Part shown: piece by piece, positions 2,153-19,761 of the stretch
Layout: each line of letters begins with the position of its first letter
How positions within the stretch are numbered: the stretch's first letter is position 1
NCBI GenBank assembly: GCA_022510805.1
Contig: JAFLSS010000002.1
Span: 21,675 to 85,674 of the forward strand
Reading direction: 5' to 3'
Length of the DNA: 64,000 nucleotides
DNA from: Akkermansiaceae bacterium
Lineage (GTDB): Bacteria; Verrucomicrobiota; Verrucomicrobiia; Verrucomicrobiales; Akkermansiaceae
The notes under the pieces: model-generated
What the model was told of the DNA's origin: nothing
The model's database searches: none
Seen by the model: only the letters and a program-made list of their open reading frames with translations
Program-made: the position numbers and the translations under genes

Positions 2153-2791
2153 ATGAGTTCTTCCATCCGCATCATCGTCGGGCTAGGCAACCCCGGCGCC
2201 ACCTATGCCGCCACGCGACACAATGTCGGCTTCATGGCGCTGGATGCGCTGGCCCGGCAGTGGTCGGCGGTGTGGAAGTCGGACCGGGGGCGCAAGTGTG
2301 AGCTGGCTTCCGGGCCGGGGGTGCTGCTGGTCAAGCCGCAGACATACATGAACGACTCCGGCTCTTGTGTGGGGCCGCTGATGCGCTATTTCAAGTTCAC
2401 CCCGGAGCAGGTGCTGGTGGTCTATGATGACACCGCCCTGCCCGTGGGCGGGCTGCGCCTGCGCGCCGGCGGTAGCGATGGCGGCCACAACGGCATGAAA
2501 TCCCTCATCGCCCACCTGGGAAGCGACCACTTCCCGCGCCTGCGCATCGGCATCGGCAGCCACGGCCAGAAATCGCTGGTGGGGCATGTGCTGGGGCATT
2601 TTGCGCCGGAGGAGAAGCCCCTCATCGAGGAGGGCGTGCAACATGCGGCCAAGGCGGTGCAGCTCCTGCTCCGGGAGGGCTTTGAGGCTGCGGCCAACCG
2701 CTACAACCTGCGCAAAAAGAAAGAGCCCAAACCCGCCCCGCCCGCGCCGGAGCAGCCGCCGGCTCCCGCAGCCGATTCTTCGGAAGAATAG
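2153..2791 (+). CDS. pth: Peptidyl-tRNA hydrolase
   Basis: IIVGLGNPGATYAATRHNVGFMALD, LVKPQTYMNDSG, GGHNGMKSL motifs. Confidence 0.95.
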   Translation: MSSSIRIIVGLGNPGATYAATRHNVGFMALDALARQWSAVWKSDRGRKCELASGPGVLLVKPQTYMNDSGSCVGPLMRYFKFTPEQVLVVYDDTALPVGGLRLRAGGSDGGHNGMKSLIAHLGSDHFPRLRIGIGSHGQKSLVGHVLGHFAPEEKPLIEEGVQHAAKAVQLLLREGFEAAANRYNLRKKKEPKPAPPAPEQPPAPAADSSEE

Positions 2792-2840
2792 GGCATAACC
2801 GAGCTTGCTATGGTGGCCGAGTTGTGATATGATGCTCGGC

Positions 2841-4940
2841 ATGAAAGCGATGTGGTTCAAGCTCGTGGCGCTGCTGCTGGTCGGCATGGCGCAAATGATG
2901 GCGCAAGAGACTCAGCTGGAGGTCAAAAGCGAGTCCAGCGTCAACTCCTACGAAGTGGGCAAGCCCTTTTATGTGGCGCTGCAAGGCAAGGCGCCGGAGT
3001 CGTGGCACGCCTATTACCGCAACCCGGCAACCGTGGGGCAGCCCATGAGCGCCACCCTGCTGGCGCCTGCCGGGTTCAGCGTGGAGGGGCCATTCTGGCA
3101 GGTGCCGGAGCTGCATAAGAGCGGCGTGACCGTGGCCTATGTCTATAATAAGCCGGTGGTGGTGTGGCGCGTCACCCCGCAGCCCGGTGCCCCGGCCAAG
3201 GCGCATTTTGTCCTCTCTGCCCGGGCGCAGCTTTGCAATGACCTCGGCTGCATGCCTGATAAAACTGTGAGCACTGAGCTGGATCTGGAGCAGGGGACGG
3301 CGGAGCCGAATCCTGAGTGGAGCCGCGCCGAGTCTCAGGTGGAGTCCCTGGGTGATACCGCGCTGCAGGAGGTGCATGCTCAGCGCATGCCGGGCGGGGT
3401 GACGCTGCGCTTCCAAGCCCCGGCCGAGGTGAAAACGGCTTATTTCTTCTCTGATGACAATAGTGTGGATCCTTCTGCTGAGCAGGTGCTCACGGTGAAA
3501 GACGGCGTCTGTGAGCTCACGCTTCTCTCCAATGACGGCAAGAACTCCCTCTTCCCCGCACCGGAGGCGCAGCCCGGCGCCAAAAAGCGCCTGGTGGGCA
3601 TGCTCTCCCTCGGCGAGGCCGGGCACGCGCGGGTGGATGTGCCGGTGGAAAGCGCCGGCGCCGGGATGCCTGCCGGGCTGTGGGAGGCCATGGTGGGGCT
3701 CTTTCTGGGGGGCTTGCTGCTCAACCTGATGCCCTGCGTCTTCCCGGTGCTGGGGCTCAAGATCATGAGTTTCGTATCGCTGGGGGGCGGGAGCCGCCGG
3801 CGCGTGGTGGGGCATTCGCTTGCCTTTGTCGTGGGGATTCTGGTGTCCTTCTGGATACTGGGAGTGCTGCTGGTGGCGGCCTCCAATGCCGACGTGCTGG
3901 CGCAGGCTCCTGTGGGGGACTGGCTGGGTATCCTCTGGGGAGATGACGGCGCGGCCAACCGCAGCTGGGCAGCGTGGATGGAGAACCAATGGGTTGTGTA
4001 CGGCATTCTGCTGCTGCTGATTGTGCTTGGGTTGTGGATGTTCGGCATCTTTGAGCTCGGCGCGCGCGCCACGGGGCTGGGCGCCGGGCTGCAGAGCAAG
4101 GGCGGCTACGCCGGCTCGTTCTTCCAGGGCTTGTTTGTCACCGTGGTGGCCACTCCCTGCAGCGCGCCCTACCTGGGTGCGGCCATGCCCACGGCCATGT
4201 CCTTCCCCGCGGTGTGGATGCTGGTGGCCCTCACGGCCATGGCCCTGGGCTTCTCCTTGCCCTACCTCGTGCTGGGCATCTTCCCGGGGCTGGTGCGCTT
4301 CCTGCCGAAGCCCGGCGCGTGGATGGAGTCTCTCAAGCAGGGGCTCTCTTTCTGCCTATTTGCCGCCGCTGCGTGGATGCTGGATGTCTACCTCTCCTTT
4401 GTCACCGCCTCCGGCCGGGCGGATGAAACGATGTGGGTGCTCATCGCGCTGGTGATCTTTATCTCCGCATTCTGGGTTTTCGGGCGCTGGTGCCCGCTCT
4501 ACCGCAGCCGGACGAGCCGCGTGGTGGGTGGCATTGTGGCGCTGGCGCTGCTGGTTGGCGGCGTGTGGTATTCCATGCCGCAGGCTGTGCGGGAGGATGC
4601 CCCGGAGTGGGAGGCCTGGACACCGGAGGCCATGGAGGAGGCGCTGGATGATGGGATTCCTGTGTATGTGGATTTCACCGCCAAATGGTGTGCCACATGT
4701 CAGTCCAACAAGAAGTTTGCCTACACGGATGAGGTGTATAAGATCTTCAAGGCGAATGATGTGAAGCTCTTCCGGGCAGACAAGACGCACCCCAATGAGA
4801 AGATTGATGCAGAGCTGCGCCGCCTCAAGCGCAGCGCCGTGCCGACCAATGCGCTCTACCTCCCGGATAAGGAGCCCATCGTCACGCGTGAGCTGCTTAC
4901 TCCGGCGTATCTGCTCGAGTTCCTCAAAGAGCATCTGTGA
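2841..4940 (+). CDS. DsbD-like thiol:disulfide interchange protein (N-terminal periplasmic domain, multi-TM domain, C-terminal thioredoxin domain)
   Basis: Signal peptide MKAMWFKLVALLLVGMAQ; LMPCVFPVLGLK, VATPCSAPYLGAA; C-terminal DFTAKWCATCQSNK. Confidence 0.88.
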   Translation: MKAMWFKLVALLLVGMAQMMAQETQLEVKSESSVNSYEVGKPFYVALQGKAPESWHAYYRNPATVGQPMSATLLAPAGFSVEGPFWQVPELHKSGVTVAYVYNKPVVVWRVTPQPGAPAKAHFVLSARAQLCNDLGCMPDKTVSTELDLEQGTAEPNPEWSRAESQVESLGDTALQEVHAQRMPGGVTLRFQAPAEVKTAYFFSDDNSVDPSAEQVLTVKDGVCELTLLSNDGKNSLFPAPEAQPGAKKRLVGMLSLGEAGHARVDVPVESAGAGMPAGLWEAMVGLFLGGLLLNLMPCVFPVLGLKIMSFVSLGGGSRRRVVGHSLAFVVGILVSFWILGVLLVAASNADVLAQAPVGDWLGILWGDDGAANRSWAAWMENQWVVYGILLLLIVLGLWMFGIFELGARATGLGAGLQSKGGYAGSFFQGLFVTVVATPCSAPYLGAAMPTAMSFPAVWMLVALTAMALGFSLPYLVLGIFPGLVRFLPKPGAWMESLKQGLSFCLFAAAAWMLDVYLSFVTASGRADETMWVLIALVIFISAFWVFGRWCPLYRSRTSRVVGGIVALALLVGGVWYSMPQAVREDAPEWEAWTPEAMEEALDDGIPVYVDFTAKWCATCQSNKKFAYTDEVYKIFKANDVKLFRADKTHPNEKIDAELRRLKRSAVPTNALYLPDKEPIVTRELLTPAYLLEFLKEHL

Positions 4941-5037
4941 TGCCGCGCCCCGTGCGCGTGGCCTTGTGCATTCTCACGCCGCCCCTTTTTCGCCTGTGCT
5001 GGCGGGGAAGGGGCGTTCTTTGTGCTGCGCGCGCGCG

Positions 5038-6648
5038 TTACTCTGAGCTCTGTGAGGAGGGGGCAGCGCTGCCGATGATTTGGAGGAAGCGCTCCCGGAG
5101 CTCGGGGCTTTGCGGGAGGAGGGTGAGTTCTCCCTCCCGGAGGTGCAGGCCGCCTTGCAGAAGCTCCTCAAGCACCTGCAGGTACTTGAACCCCTCCGCC
5201 TGCTGCTCCGGGTCCAGCTCCGCAGGATCCGCCTGAGCATAAGGGGCAAAGCCCGCCTTCCAGCTCTCGAGGACGGAGGGCGCGCCGGCTTCTTGCCGGT
5301 TCGGATCTGCTCCGGCTTGCAAGAGCCAGAGCGTTTTTTCCGGGGCATCGGGGGTGCTGCTGCGGACAAGTTGGGCCAGCAGGCGCGTGGCGGCTTCACT
5401 GCTGGGGAAGCTCAGCCTGCCGTGGGTGTGGAGGAGGCGCAGCGGCGGGAGGCTGCCCGGGGTGGTGATGACGCCTGCCGCGAGGTCGAGCAGCGGGGTA
5501 TCCGCTGTGCCGTGTCCCTGAAGGCGCAGCCACTGCTCCGCCGCGTTGGGAGTGAGCGGCTCCGGCAGAGACTCCTCCTGCACGGGGCGCGGCTGCTGAG
5601 GCGTGGTTTGGAGGGAGCGCACCCAGCGCTCTTTGTCCTCCGCGTCCTCATACTCGCAGTCGGTTGCCGCGCAGAGCAGGAAGGTGAGCAGCTCCTCATC
5701 GCCGGTGTCGAGGTAGCCCTGCTCGGCCAAACTCTGTGCGAGCGGCAGAGAGCCATCATATGCCAGCAGAGAGGCCACATCCCGCTTGGCGCGTGCGCTC
5801 TGCGGGCGGGCGCCATGCTGCAGCGCCCACTGCAAAGAGCGCCCGGGTATAATCACCCCGGATGCCGCGGCTCCCTCCTCCTCATCCGCGGTCTCAAGCG
5901 CCTCGGCGTCTAGCGCATCCGCCTCTGCCGCAAGCTGCAAGGCCAGATCCGGCTGAGTCGAGATGACAGCGCCATGGGAGACAAGAAAATCAAGCAGCGC
6001 GAGCCGCTCGGCCTGCGGCGGCGGGGCATCAGCCTCCCACGAGCTGCGCGCACCCAGCACACAGCCCCAGAGGGGCAGCGGCTGAGGCGTCAGCAGGCAG
6101 TAGGCATTGGGGTCGCACCCGCGGCGCACGAGCTCGCGGGTGAGCTCCAACTGCTGCGCCAGATACGCGAAATGAGCGGCATGAGCTCCGCCGGGCTCCA
6201 CAGCATCCACCTTACCTGTGCCGGCCACGCGGCGCATCATGAGGTGCAGCTTGCGTATCTCGGATCCCGCGGTGAGCTCGGCCTTGTAACCATATATCCC
6301 GGTGAAAACGATGGCGCGGCACGACAGAGCAAAAGTCTTGAAGGGGGAGTCGCTGAGGTAGGCTTCCGTAAACAGCGACACGCAGTAGTCCCCGAGGCTT
6401 TGTTCCTTGTTCGGCCCCGTCTGGTATGAGTAGAGGTAGTCCTCGGAAATGTAGTCATTCACCTGCCGGAGCTGCTCAAACTGCTGCGGCGTCCAGCTCG
6501 GGTGGTGAGTCTGGCCGAGGTCGCTCTTGCTGATGGGCACGAGATTGAGGACACTACACGCCACGCCCGCCAGCACAAGGATGACAAAGACAATCAGCAG
6601 GACTTTGGGCAAGAGACTCTTGGGCGGTGTGGAGGCAGGGGGATTCAT
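5038..6648 (-). CDS. Membrane-anchored ankyrin-like repeat protein, paralog of 49909..51090
   Basis: N-terminal TM segment; ELVRRGCDPNAY, LLQAGADPNRQ repeat units; strong similarity to the ORF at 49909. Confidence 0.7.
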   Translation of the reverse strand: MNPPASTPPKSLLPKVLLIVFVILVLAGVACSVLNLVPISKSDLGQTHHPSWTPQQFEQLRQVNDYISEDYLYSYQTGPNKEQSLGDYCVSLFTEAYLSDSPFKTFALSCRAIVFTGIYGYKAELTAGSEIRKLHLMMRRVAGTGKVDAVEPGGAHAAHFAYLAQQLELTRELVRRGCDPNAYCLLTPQPLPLWGCVLGARSSWEADAPPPQAERLALLDFLVSHGAVISTQPDLALQLAAEADALDAEALETADEEEGAAASGVIIPGRSLQWALQHGARPQSARAKRDVASLLAYDGSLPLAQSLAEQGYLDTGDEELLTFLLCAATDCEYEDAEDKERWVRSLQTTPQQPRPVQEESLPEPLTPNAAEQWLRLQGHGTADTPLLDLAAGVITTPGSLPPLRLLHTHGRLSFPSSEAATRLLAQLVRSSTPDAPEKTLWLLQAGADPNRQEAGAPSVLESWKAGFAPYAQADPAELDPEQQAEGFKYLQVLEELLQGGLHLREGELTLLPQSPELRERFLQIIGSAAPSSQSSE

Positions 6649-16758: not shown

Positions 16759-17712
16759 ATGAATGATTCATCTTCCCAAGAGATGCCGAAAACCAACTGG
16801 GGCCCCATTATTAAGGACCTGTTCATCCTCATGTGCGTGATGGGCACTATTGGCTTCCTCTGCAAGCTCGCGATGGAGCCTTTCGAAGAAAAAAGCCCCA
16901 CGGATAGCCTCGTTTCCCTCATCCGCAAGGGTGATGTGAAGCTCCAGGATCAACAAGCTTCCGACCAGCATTTCCTCAAGGAACTTAATATCTTGAATGC
17001 AAAAGTTGACCGGGATAAAATGGGGGTGAATATCTCAGACCGCACCGGGCGCACGCCGCTCATGTGGGCTGTATATGCCAACTTCAATAATCCCCAAGAC
17101 GCCCTCAAGGTGGACGCAAAGCGCCTGTACTACGTGTTCTCCCTGCTGAAGGCCCCCAACATTGATATCCACCAGCGGGATATAGACGGCTTCACGGCCA
17201 TGCATTGGGCGGCTTGGAGCGGCCTGCACTACAATCTCACACTCCTTGCTAACGCCGGGGTGGATGTGAATGCTCGTGAGAATGCGGGCTACACGCCTCT
17301 CATGCTCGCCGCGATGCGCGGCAATGCGGACGCTGTGGCCGCGCTGCTGGCGCTGGGGGCGGATGCATCGCAGGAGCGAATCGGCCGCACCGCCGCTGAT
17401 CTGGCTCAGGAGGCGTGTGCAAGCTACGACAAGAACAGCGCTTTCTTCTACTCCCTCATCTACTCCGATGAGCGTGCTGCCAACTATGACCGCACGCTCA
17501 AACTCCTGAAGGCGGGCAAGAGCGACACGCCTGCAATGACGAATGACGAGCTGTACCAAGTCATGCTCAATGCCGTGCAGGAAAGCGAGAAGACCGGCCA
17601 AAAGGCAACTGAGCAAGCCGAAGAGAAGAAGCAGGAGCTCGAGGTAGAGAAGGCCGCTGCCGCGCCGCCTGACACGGATGCCGACCAAGCTCCCTCCGCC
17701 CAGGTTGAGTGA
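16759..17712 (+). CDS. Membrane-anchored ankyrin repeat protein
   Basis: N-terminal TM; GRTPLMWAV, DGFTAMHWAAWSGLHYNLTLLANAGVDVNARENAGYTPLMLAAMRGNADAVAALLALGADAS. Confidence 0.85.
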   Translation: MNDSSSQEMPKTNWGPIIKDLFILMCVMGTIGFLCKLAMEPFEEKSPTDSLVSLIRKGDVKLQDQQASDQHFLKELNILNAKVDRDKMGVNISDRTGRTPLMWAVYANFNNPQDALKVDAKRLYYVFSLLKAPNIDIHQRDIDGFTAMHWAAWSGLHYNLTLLANAGVDVNARENAGYTPLMLAAMRGNADAVAALLALGADASQERIGRTAADLAQEACASYDKNSAFFYSLIYSDERAANYDRTLKLLKAGKSDTPAMTNDELYQVMLNAVQESEKTGQKATEQAEEKKQELEVEKAAAAPPDTDADQAPSAQVE

Positions 17713-17763
17713 GCCCGGCGCGTGCGCTGAGTCGCTATGTTGCTCATTCGCCGATTTCGCTGT

Positions 17764-17800
17764 CGCCCCATCATGCCGAGCATTTCGACCTGATGGGGCG
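17764..17800. terminator. Inverted repeat downstream of the ankyrin gene, possible terminator
   Basis: CGCCCCATCA (17764-17773) / TGATGGGGCG (17791-17800), perfect 10-bp arms, 17-nt loop; only a weak U tract (AATTGTTTA). Confidence 0.35.
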
Positions 17801-17806
17801 AATTGT

Positions 17807-17850
17807 TTAGCAAATATATGCTTGATTTACCCTGCAAAATTTGCTAATAT
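17807..17850 (+). promoter_or_regulatory. abiE promoter with overlapping inverted-repeat operator
   Basis: TTGATT 17822-17827, 17 bp, TAATAT 17845-17850; inverted repeat TTAGCAAAT 17807-17815 / ATTTGCTAA 17839-17847 brackets the -35 and overlaps the -10. Confidence 0.6.
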
Positions 17851-17859
17851 GCCTCTGTC

Positions 17860-18498
17860 ATGCCACAATCCTTGCACCAGATTTTTGGCAACAAACCGGT
17901 AAGTACCGCTTTGCTCAGAAGAGAATTGACAGATTTTCAATCACCTCGTGCACATTTGGCCCTGCTTGTTCGCAGGGGTGAGCTTACCCACCTGCGCCGT
18001 GGACTTTATCTTTGTCGAGAAACAGGACAAAGCATATCCGAAGCTCAGATAGCCAATGAACTTGTATCCCCGTCCTATATATCCTATGAGACGGCTCTCT
18101 CTTGGTTGGGCATCATCCCGGAACATGTTCACACTATTAAATCTGCCTGTCTGGGGCGTAGCCGCAGCTTTGAAAACTCAACAGGACGCTATACATACAC
18201 CCAGTTGCCCTTTGAATATTTTCAACTTGGACAATCTGTGGGATACACCTCAGATGGTGTAGCGTATCAAATTGCGTCAGCAGAAAAAGCACTTTGCGAT
18301 CTTGTGTTGGCCACCCCACATCTGCGCCTTCAGTCTCCCAAAGCAGCCCGCATCTATTTGGAAGACTTCCTTCGCGCGGATGAGGATGAACTCTCCTCTT
18401 TGAATCCGGACTTAATATACACTCTCGCCCTTGCTGCTCACAAGAAGAAAAACGACCTCTTTCACCTTGAAACCACCCTACACCGTGACTATCTTTGA
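17860..18498 (+). CDS. AbiEi-type antitoxin (transcriptional regulator of type IV AbiE TA system)
   Basis: PVSTALLRRELTDFQSPRAHLALLVRRGELTHLRRGLYLC (wHTH); ANELVSPSYISYETALSWLGIIPE; SAEKALCDLV; followed by AbiEii remnant. Confidence 0.8.
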   Translation: MPQSLHQIFGNKPVSTALLRRELTDFQSPRAHLALLVRRGELTHLRRGLYLCRETGQSISEAQIANELVSPSYISYETALSWLGIIPEHVHTIKSACLGRSRSFENSTGRYTYTQLPFEYFQLGQSVGYTSDGVAYQIASAEKALCDLVLATPHLRLQSPKAARIYLEDFLRADEDELSSLNPDLIYTLALAAHKKKNDLFHLETTLHRDYL

Positions 18499-18903
18499 GA
18501 CAATGCTCGCTCAGCGCAAAGTTAGCAGTCAACAAGAGAACTATTAGCTATTAGAGAAATAGTACAACAAATCACACTTGCAGGTCTCGCAAGAAGTGGC
18601 TTTTTTGAGCGCGCCGCTTTCTATGGAGGTACATGCCTCAAGATATTTCATGGACTTCCTCGTTTTTCTGAGGATATGGATTTCTCTCTCATGTCTCAGG
18701 ATAAAGAATTTCAGCTAGAAAACTATTTTGATGGCATTCATGATATATTCCGGTCTATGGGCTTGAATATAGAACTCTCCCGAAAACAGAAAAAGCACAA
18801 TAGTGCCATTCAGTCAGCTTTTCTGAAGAGCGACACAACTCAATATGACCTGAAGTTAGAACGCGGTCGGCTCATCAAGGTGAATTCGCGCTGTGTTTGG
18901 TGA
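18485..18903 (+). pseudogene. AbiEii/AbiGii nucleotidyltransferase toxin remnant, frameshifted near 18537 and truncated at the C-terminus
   Basis: GTG at 18485 reads MTIFETMLAQRKVSSQQE, then frame change to LLAIREIVQQITLAGLARSGFFERAAFYGGTCLKIFHGLPRFSEDMDFSLMSQDKEFQLENYFDGIHDIF... and stops after LKLERGRLIKVNSRCVW. GG-T and D-D active-site motifs retained; C-terminal half absent. Confidence 0.8.
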
Positions 18904-18959
18904 TTTTTGTGGGTACGCAACAGGAGCTGATTATTGGGGAAATCTTGTCCTTTCTAACA

Positions 18960-18998
18960 GACGCTGACCAGGCCCCCTCCGCCCACGTGGAGTGAGCC
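18960..18998 (+). repeat. Second copy of the ankyrin gene 3' tail (DADQAPSAHVE-stop), imperfect direct repeat of 17677..17715
   Basis: 39 bp with 33 identities; all 6 differences fall on codon position 3. Confidence 0.8.
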
Positions 18999-19032
18999 GC
19001 CTAGCCATCAAATCGTAATTCGTAAATCCCTC

Positions 19033-19761
19033 TCACCTGAGCCAGGCGAGGAATTCTTTGTTACCCTCCATGCCGGTGATGGGGGAGTCTGCCACGCCCA
19101 TCCACTCGCGGTGCAGATCTTGTGTCACGAACTCGTGAATTTTGGAGATGGCGCGGTGGTGCAGCTCCGGGTCGCGCACAATGCCGCCGGGGCCGATGTC
19201 CTCCGGCCGGAGTTCAAATTGCGGCTTGATGAGGACGAGCAGGTCACCGCCTTCTTCCAAACAGGAATAGGCGGCCGGCAGGATTTTGGTGAGTGAGATA
19301 AAGGAAACATCGCTCACGATGAGCTGCACTTTCTCGCCGAGGTCATCGGGAGTCATGTAGCGGGCGTTGAATTGCTCCTTGACAATCACGCGCGGGTCGT
19401 TGCGCAGTTTCCACACAAGCTGGTTGGTGCCCACATCCACCGCGTGCACACGCGCGGCGCCGTGCTGAAGCAAGCAGTCGGTGAATCCGCCTGTCGAGGA
19501 GCCGATATCGAGGCACACTTTGTCCTGCGGACTCACCGGAAATGCTTGCAGCGCGCCCTCCAGTTTGAGCCCGCCCCGGCTGACATAGCGGGGCGGGGTT
19601 TTGACGGCGATGGGCAGGTCGCTGTCCACCTTGGTGCCCGGTTTGGTGATGACTTGTCCCTTCACCGATACCTCGCCGGCCAAGATGAGGCGCTGCGCCT
19701 GCTCTCGTGATGCGCACAAACCTGCAGCATGCACCAGTACATCCAATCTCTGCTTGGGCAT
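19033..19761 (-). CDS. tlyA: TlyA family rRNA 2'-O-methyltransferase / hemolysin-like
   Basis: S4 domain RLDVLVHAAGLCASREQAQRLILAGEVSVKG; LDIGSSTGGFTDCLLQHGA; FELRPEDIGPGGIVRD. Confidence 0.9.
   Translation of the reverse strand: MPKQRLDVLVHAAGLCASREQAQRLILAGEVSVKGQVITKPGTKVDSDLPIAVKTPPRYVSRGGLKLEGALQAFPVSPQDKVCLDIGSSTGGFTDCLLQHGAARVHAVDVGTNQLVWKLRNDPRVIVKEQFNARYMTPDDLGEKVQLIVSDVSFISLTKILPAAYSCLEEGGDLLVLIKPQFELRPEDIGPGGIVRDPELHHRAISKIHEFVTQDLHREWMGVADSPITGMEGNKEFLAWLR

Follow-up and report, generated by a model that had tools for sequence, protein, structure and literature searches.

Gene content of the ilvD–tlyA interval

The locus lies in a 64,000-nucleotide stretch of Akkermansia DNA (the window; its genome is designated G000) and reads, in order, ilvD, an MFS transporter gene, an ankyrin-repeat gene (ANK), abiEi, a remnant of abiEii, a second copy of the ankyrin gene end, and a convergent tlyA. 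By synteny and trees, the window's ankyrin gene is the ortholog of the genus's single ANK gene, which follows the MFS gene. The features are as follows, with the grounds for each in brackets:

16759..17712, plus strand: ankyrin-repeat gene (ANK), complete, 317 amino acids, with an N-terminal hydrophobic segment (open reading frame; Pfam Ank_2, 1.1e-20; synteny; trees)
17674..17715, plus strand: tail copy 1, the last 12 ankyrin codons, the stop codon and GCC (repeat search, codon table, degenerate search)
17763..17801, plus strand: strong hairpin with a short T-rich run after it, the likely ANK terminator (inverted repeat; predicted fold of -24 kcal/mol on 17755-17810)
17808..17846, plus strand: 39-bp AbiE operator remnant, TAGCAAAT...CTGCAAAATTTGCTA (comparison with the 57-bp element upstream of relatives' abiEi)
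17860..18498, plus strand: abiEi antitoxin gene, an unbroken frame of 212 amino acids (open reading frame; PADLOC AbiEi, 1.7e-53)
18485..18882, plus strand: abiEii toxin remnant with a GTG start overlapping abiEi (tblastn; PADLOC AbiEii, 1.3e-46; PF08843, 6.3e-15)
18883..18956, no strand assigned: 74-bp stretch separating tail copy 2 from the abiEii remnant (origin search in 76 genus genomes)
18957..18998, plus strand: tail copy 2, 12 stranded codons from the end of an ankyrin gene with the stop codon and GCC (repeat search, codon table, position in sister genomes)
19033..19761, minus strand: convergent tlyA-type gene, S4 plus FtsJ methyltransferase (Pfam; directly after ANK in five sister genomes)

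At 19001-19028, between copy 2 and tlyA, lies CTAGCCATCAAATCGTAATTCGTAAATC, which matches a dispersed repeat of the TTCGTAA/ATCGTAA type. Candidate sites for this repeat number 100-190 in several genomes of rabbit Akkermansia (G090, G026, G092 and G025), but the window's own genome has almost none.

The end of the ankyrin gene occurs twice

A repeat search of the window identified a direct repeat of 42 nt, 83% identical, between 17674-17715 and 18957-18998. Both copies encode TDADQAPSA(Q/H)VE followed by the stop codon and GCC, and the sequence outside the 42-nt block is unrelated between them; the homology of copy 2 to the ankyrin end starts abruptly at 18957, and what lies before that point does not resemble the ankyrin gene. 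An earlier note on this DNA, made from the letters of the sequence, had described the repeat as 39 nt with 33 identities. The repeat is real and slightly longer than described: immediately 5' of the 39-nt block lies one further difference, a synonymous third-position change in a threonine codon (ACG/ACA), bringing the differences from six to seven. The note's remark that the copies differ only at third positions holds for the full extent, with all seven differences at codon position 3; one of these exchanges Gln for His and the other six are synonymous.

The pairing is specific. The best match to the 42-mer elsewhere in the window reaches 24 of 42 positions, as against 35 of 42 for copy 2, and a degenerate DNA search for DADQAPSAxVE plus stop across 76 Akkermansia genomes, the window's own included, returned exactly two sites, copies 1 and 2; we accordingly rejected the idea that the tail is a protein motif reused elsewhere. 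The tail was also absent from the viral contigs that were scanned. Misassembly is unlikely, because the identical runs shared by the two tails, at most 11 bp, are too short for ordinary assembly joining.

The AbiE segment retains an antitoxin frame and part of a toxin gene

Between the two tails lies an AbiE segment in unequal states of preservation. Its operator keeps both outer arms and lacks 18 bp inside, relative to the 57-bp element of relatives. AbiEi gives a near full-length match to the PADLOC AbiEi profile (residues 12-207), in keeping with an antitoxin that has a winged-helix domain and a C-terminal domain, while its matches to Pfam AbiEi_4 and NCBIfam NF047376 fall below both cut-offs. 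The abiEii reading frame is broken by a 1-nt frameshift near 18538, and by tblastn its homology ends at 18882, which corresponds to about residue 134 of the 279 residues of a relative's protein; it covers positions 3-85 of the 238 in PF08843. What is left is thus roughly residues 1-134 of 279 rather than a full-length AbiEii with motifs I-IV, and on its sequence the piece is a remnant of the family and not a working member. In Streptococcus, mutations in nucleotidyltransferase motifs I-IV abolished GTP binding (PMC3985639). With roughly its C-terminal half missing, and a frameshift besides, the AbiEii toxin of the window is almost certainly dead. The earlier note's phrase "decayed AbiE" is right, with the qualification that the frameshifted and cut gene is that of the toxin and that the 212-residue antitoxin frame is unbroken.

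The 74 bp at 18883-18956 had no convincing match in the 76 genus genomes. An origin at another locus of the genus was looked for and not found, the weak matches in G012, G032, G035, G068 and G078 being at chance level and in unrelated contexts. These 74 bp are open in the frame of copy 2 (FALCLVIFVGTQQELIIGEILSFL), probably by chance.

Copy 2 sits where the native ankyrin gene should end

For comparison we used Akkermansia metagenome-assembled genomes from the guts of rabbit, sheep, goat, cattle and buffalo. In five sister genomes (G008, G014, G025, G026 and G090) the order ilvD-MFS-ANK is followed by a convergent tlyA, the ANK gene of G014 being split over two contigs. The gap from the ANK stop to the tlyA stop is 10-32 nt in G008, G014, G025 and G026 and 241 nt in G090; in the window, the distance from the copy 2 stop to the tlyA stop is 37 nt. 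Because four of the five sister genes end 10-32 nt from tlyA and copy 2 ends 37 nt from it, copy 2 sits at the position where this lineage's native single ankyrin gene should end. In trees built for MFS, ANK and TlyA (four long branches were omitted for ANK), G000 was placed beside the sister clade, which is mostly rabbit-derived, with SH-aLRT support of 97 (starred) for MFS and 84 for ANK; in the TlyA tree it fell within the starred set of 14 rows, at 97.

Copy 1, for its part, has a context of its own. A hairpin of the same kind as that at 17763..17801 comes after ANK in many of the relatives in which tlyA is not the neighbor, the sequences having been judged by eye. With copy 1 followed by a terminator like that of these relatives and copy 2 lying near tlyA, two natural 3' contexts of one gene, ANK-terminator and ANK-tlyA, are juxtaposed in the window.

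The AbiE segment is patchy in the genus: abiEi occurs in 19 of 76 genomes, the window's own among them, and is located elsewhere in all the others. Gene-end duplication flanking AbiE was found at none of the 18 other AbiE loci.

Two side observations concern this neighborhood in relatives. The downstream neighbor of ANK varies within the sister clade of rabbit Akkermansia, being tlyA or other genes, and G020 and G094 are placed differently in the MFS tree and the TlyA tree.

The tails resemble gene ends from two species

The two tails differ at 7 of 13 third positions and at 1 of 12 residues. For orthologous ANK genes from four sister species pairs, third-position differences range from 0.25 to 0.44 and amino-acid identity from 88 to 94%. 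Over the last 14 codons, the ANK tails of G009 and G023 have identical peptides, with 0, 0 and 6 changes at codon positions 1, 2 and 3, and those of G033 and G075 show 1, 2 and 6 changes; in other species pairs the codon pattern of the ANK tail is less clean. From this comparison of sequences, the window's tails appear to behave as the ends of orthologous genes from two species, and a recent duplication within one genome would be expected to look different. That orthologous tails from different species show the same codon pattern bears out the proposal, made from the window alone, that copy 2 is the end of a once-translated ankyrin gene.

Origin of the duplicated gene end

We consider it somewhat more likely than not, and the best of the explanations weighed, that the locus is a recombination scar joining two diverged versions of one gene end. 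The ancestor would have carried a single ankyrin gene whose last codons, now copy 2, lay about 40 nt from the convergent tlyA, as in the sister species. The donor DNA would have come from a related but distinct Akkermansia lineage and brought the end of an orthologous ankyrin gene (copy 1), followed by the terminator of that gene and, further downstream, an abiE module. Entry may have been by homologous recombination inside the resident ankyrin gene and the far side closed by an illegitimate join just upstream of the resident tail; the ankyrin gene would have retained an intact and almost unchanged C-terminus, with the resident tail pushed downstream and stranded there. The abrupt start of homology at 18957 would be expected of such a join. 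The geometry, the codon pattern and the sister arrangement are observations; we infer the direction of transfer, the donor, and a step of homology-facilitated illegitimate recombination, a process described for bacteria with natural competence and, at low frequency, for conjugation in E. coli (PMC3240628). Comparison of the loci further suggests that ANK-tlyA may be a recombination-prone junction.

Several observations weigh against import. No donor with the arrangement ANK-terminator-abiE is known, and none of the other species sampled has the tail peptide; import does not account for the 74 bp preceding copy 2; and the ankyrin body has no foreign placement in the tree, where G000 still groups next to the clade of mostly rabbit origin. 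A mosaic ankyrin gene was looked for and rejected, as the MFS and ANK trees detect no foreign body of the gene. Since the body is not placed as foreign, the donor, if its DNA extended into the body, must be a close relative of this lineage.

The earlier note had proposed that two ankyrin genes once stood in tandem before tlyA and that the second of them, apart from its last codons, gave way to the abiE segment. Such a pair would account equally well for the third-position pattern and for the position of copy 2 beside tlyA, and a terminator followed by a second gene would likewise place the hairpin after copy 1; it would, however, have to consist of two long-lived, separately selected copies for third positions to diverge so far. 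The sequence just before copy 2 has no ankyrin similarity, the window's genome holds no second full-length ankyrin copy, and at the loci read in 49 genomes, where some contigs end soon after ANK, we found one ANK after the MFS gene and never two; the genomes sampled for this comparison included no close relative of the window's species. As copy 2 stands at the native gene-end place and no tandem was seen, a native gene end suffices and a paralog is not needed, and we regard this account as unlikely, though far from negligible. It would merge with import if the second copy was itself imported, since a single-crossover integration would make a transient tandem. The note had itself named, as evidence that would refute its proposal, relatives with the same tail after AbiE in a clade lacking any tandem paralog; no tandem was seen at the loci read, but the tail was found in no other sampled species, so this comparison bears on the proposal only in part.

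Two further explanations treat the repeat as the trace of an inserting element. Some integrating elements enter the 3' ends of genes and restore them with synonymous changes, and the geometry here fits that habit: copy 1 would be the gene-end mimic carried by the element, copy 2 the right attachment site, and the integrase would later have been lost, with the repeat ending just beyond the stop codon as such a site might. We nevertheless think this improbable, given that no integrase gene occurs among the neighbors read, from ilvD to an ABC transporter gene, that the longest identical core is 11 bp, that the tail is absent from the viral contigs and from the rest of the genus, and that the 18 other AbiE loci lack any such duplication. 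A simple insertion with a target-site duplication of about 42 bp, its copies diverging later, would explain why a direct repeat flanks an AT-richer insert. Transposon target duplications are usually far shorter than 42 bp, and neither a transposase nor terminal inverted repeats were found. A stranded copy should, moreover, vary at all codon positions; the probability of seven out of seven differences falling at position 3 is about 0.008 with one tail copy constrained and the other free, and 1.1e-4 for free placement over 13 codons with both copies free. These codon-position statistics favor the earlier note's exclusion of a mobile-element target duplication; such a duplication we consider very improbable.

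Read as a recombination scar, the locus is a small, clean example of defence genes landing in a conserved chromosomal junction without costing the host gene a working C-terminus. It also illustrates that the pattern of codon differences in a stranded gene end can tell whether the scar was left by recombination between species or by a transposon. It is a further example of an already known kind of scar, an ordinary mark of gene transfer.

Comparison with known systems

The arrangement resembles that of Vibrio cholerae type VI secretion (T6SS) effector-immunity modules, in which incoming DNA, anchored by homology in the conserved part of the gene upstream, replaces a gene end and the old 3' end is stranded downstream (PMC5361080). 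There, homology-facilitated illegitimate recombination was offered as the reason why effector 3' ends are displaced and immunity genes kept (PMC5361080). Unlike those modules, the window has a conserved ankyrin gene whose tail peptide is kept rather than swapped, and the DNA carried along is an AbiE module that is almost certainly dead. In Rhs C-terminal displacement, as cited in PMC5361080, 3' regions are orphaned and stranded gene ends likewise lie downstream of a recombined locus, whereas the window locus has no toxin tip or immunity gene and strands 12 codons only. As for the passenger, the type IV toxin-antitoxin AbiE of Streptococcus agalactiae (PMC3985639) shares the overlapping abiEi-abiEii bicistron and has upstream an inverted-repeat operator, of which the window keeps a putative remnant with both outer arms; the window differs in that this operator is 18 bp shorter than that of its relatives and its abiEii is frameshifted and truncated.

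AbiE operators bound modules in relatives

Three of the 18 other AbiE loci, in the relatives G022, G069 and G070, have the 57-bp operator at either end of the abiE module; its second copy directly adjoins the end of abiEii. The elements concerned, in the coordinates of each relative, are:

G069 4270-5855, G070 2654-4978 and G022 4478-6076: operator-bounded AbiE modules
G030 4196-4252: solo operator
G002 2950-3006 and G012 2537-2593: orphan 57-bp AbiE operators

G030 has flanks 95-96% identical to those of G070 but lacks abiE and carries a single operator at the corresponding site, and this solo operator is a hybrid of the left-copy and right-copy variants of G070. By its sequence it appears to be the expected scar of a deletion by recombination between the repeats. 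The operator repeats suggest a simple route of AbiE loss in the genus, which does not explain the insertion in the window; the operator-bounded modules may offer a testable form of that route for this toxin-antitoxin system. We can also conceive, as a conjecture that is more likely wrong than right by some distance, that small Akkermansia defence modules use short imperfect repeats, and no dedicated integrase, to move into and out of conserved loci: diverged gene ends in the window, duplicated 57-bp operators in the relatives, and a solo scar on loss.

G002 and G012 carry orphan operators with no abiEi detected. That of G002 lies at the rpsB-adjacent locus of G030 and G070, and that of G012 lies where its relative G035 carries AbiE.
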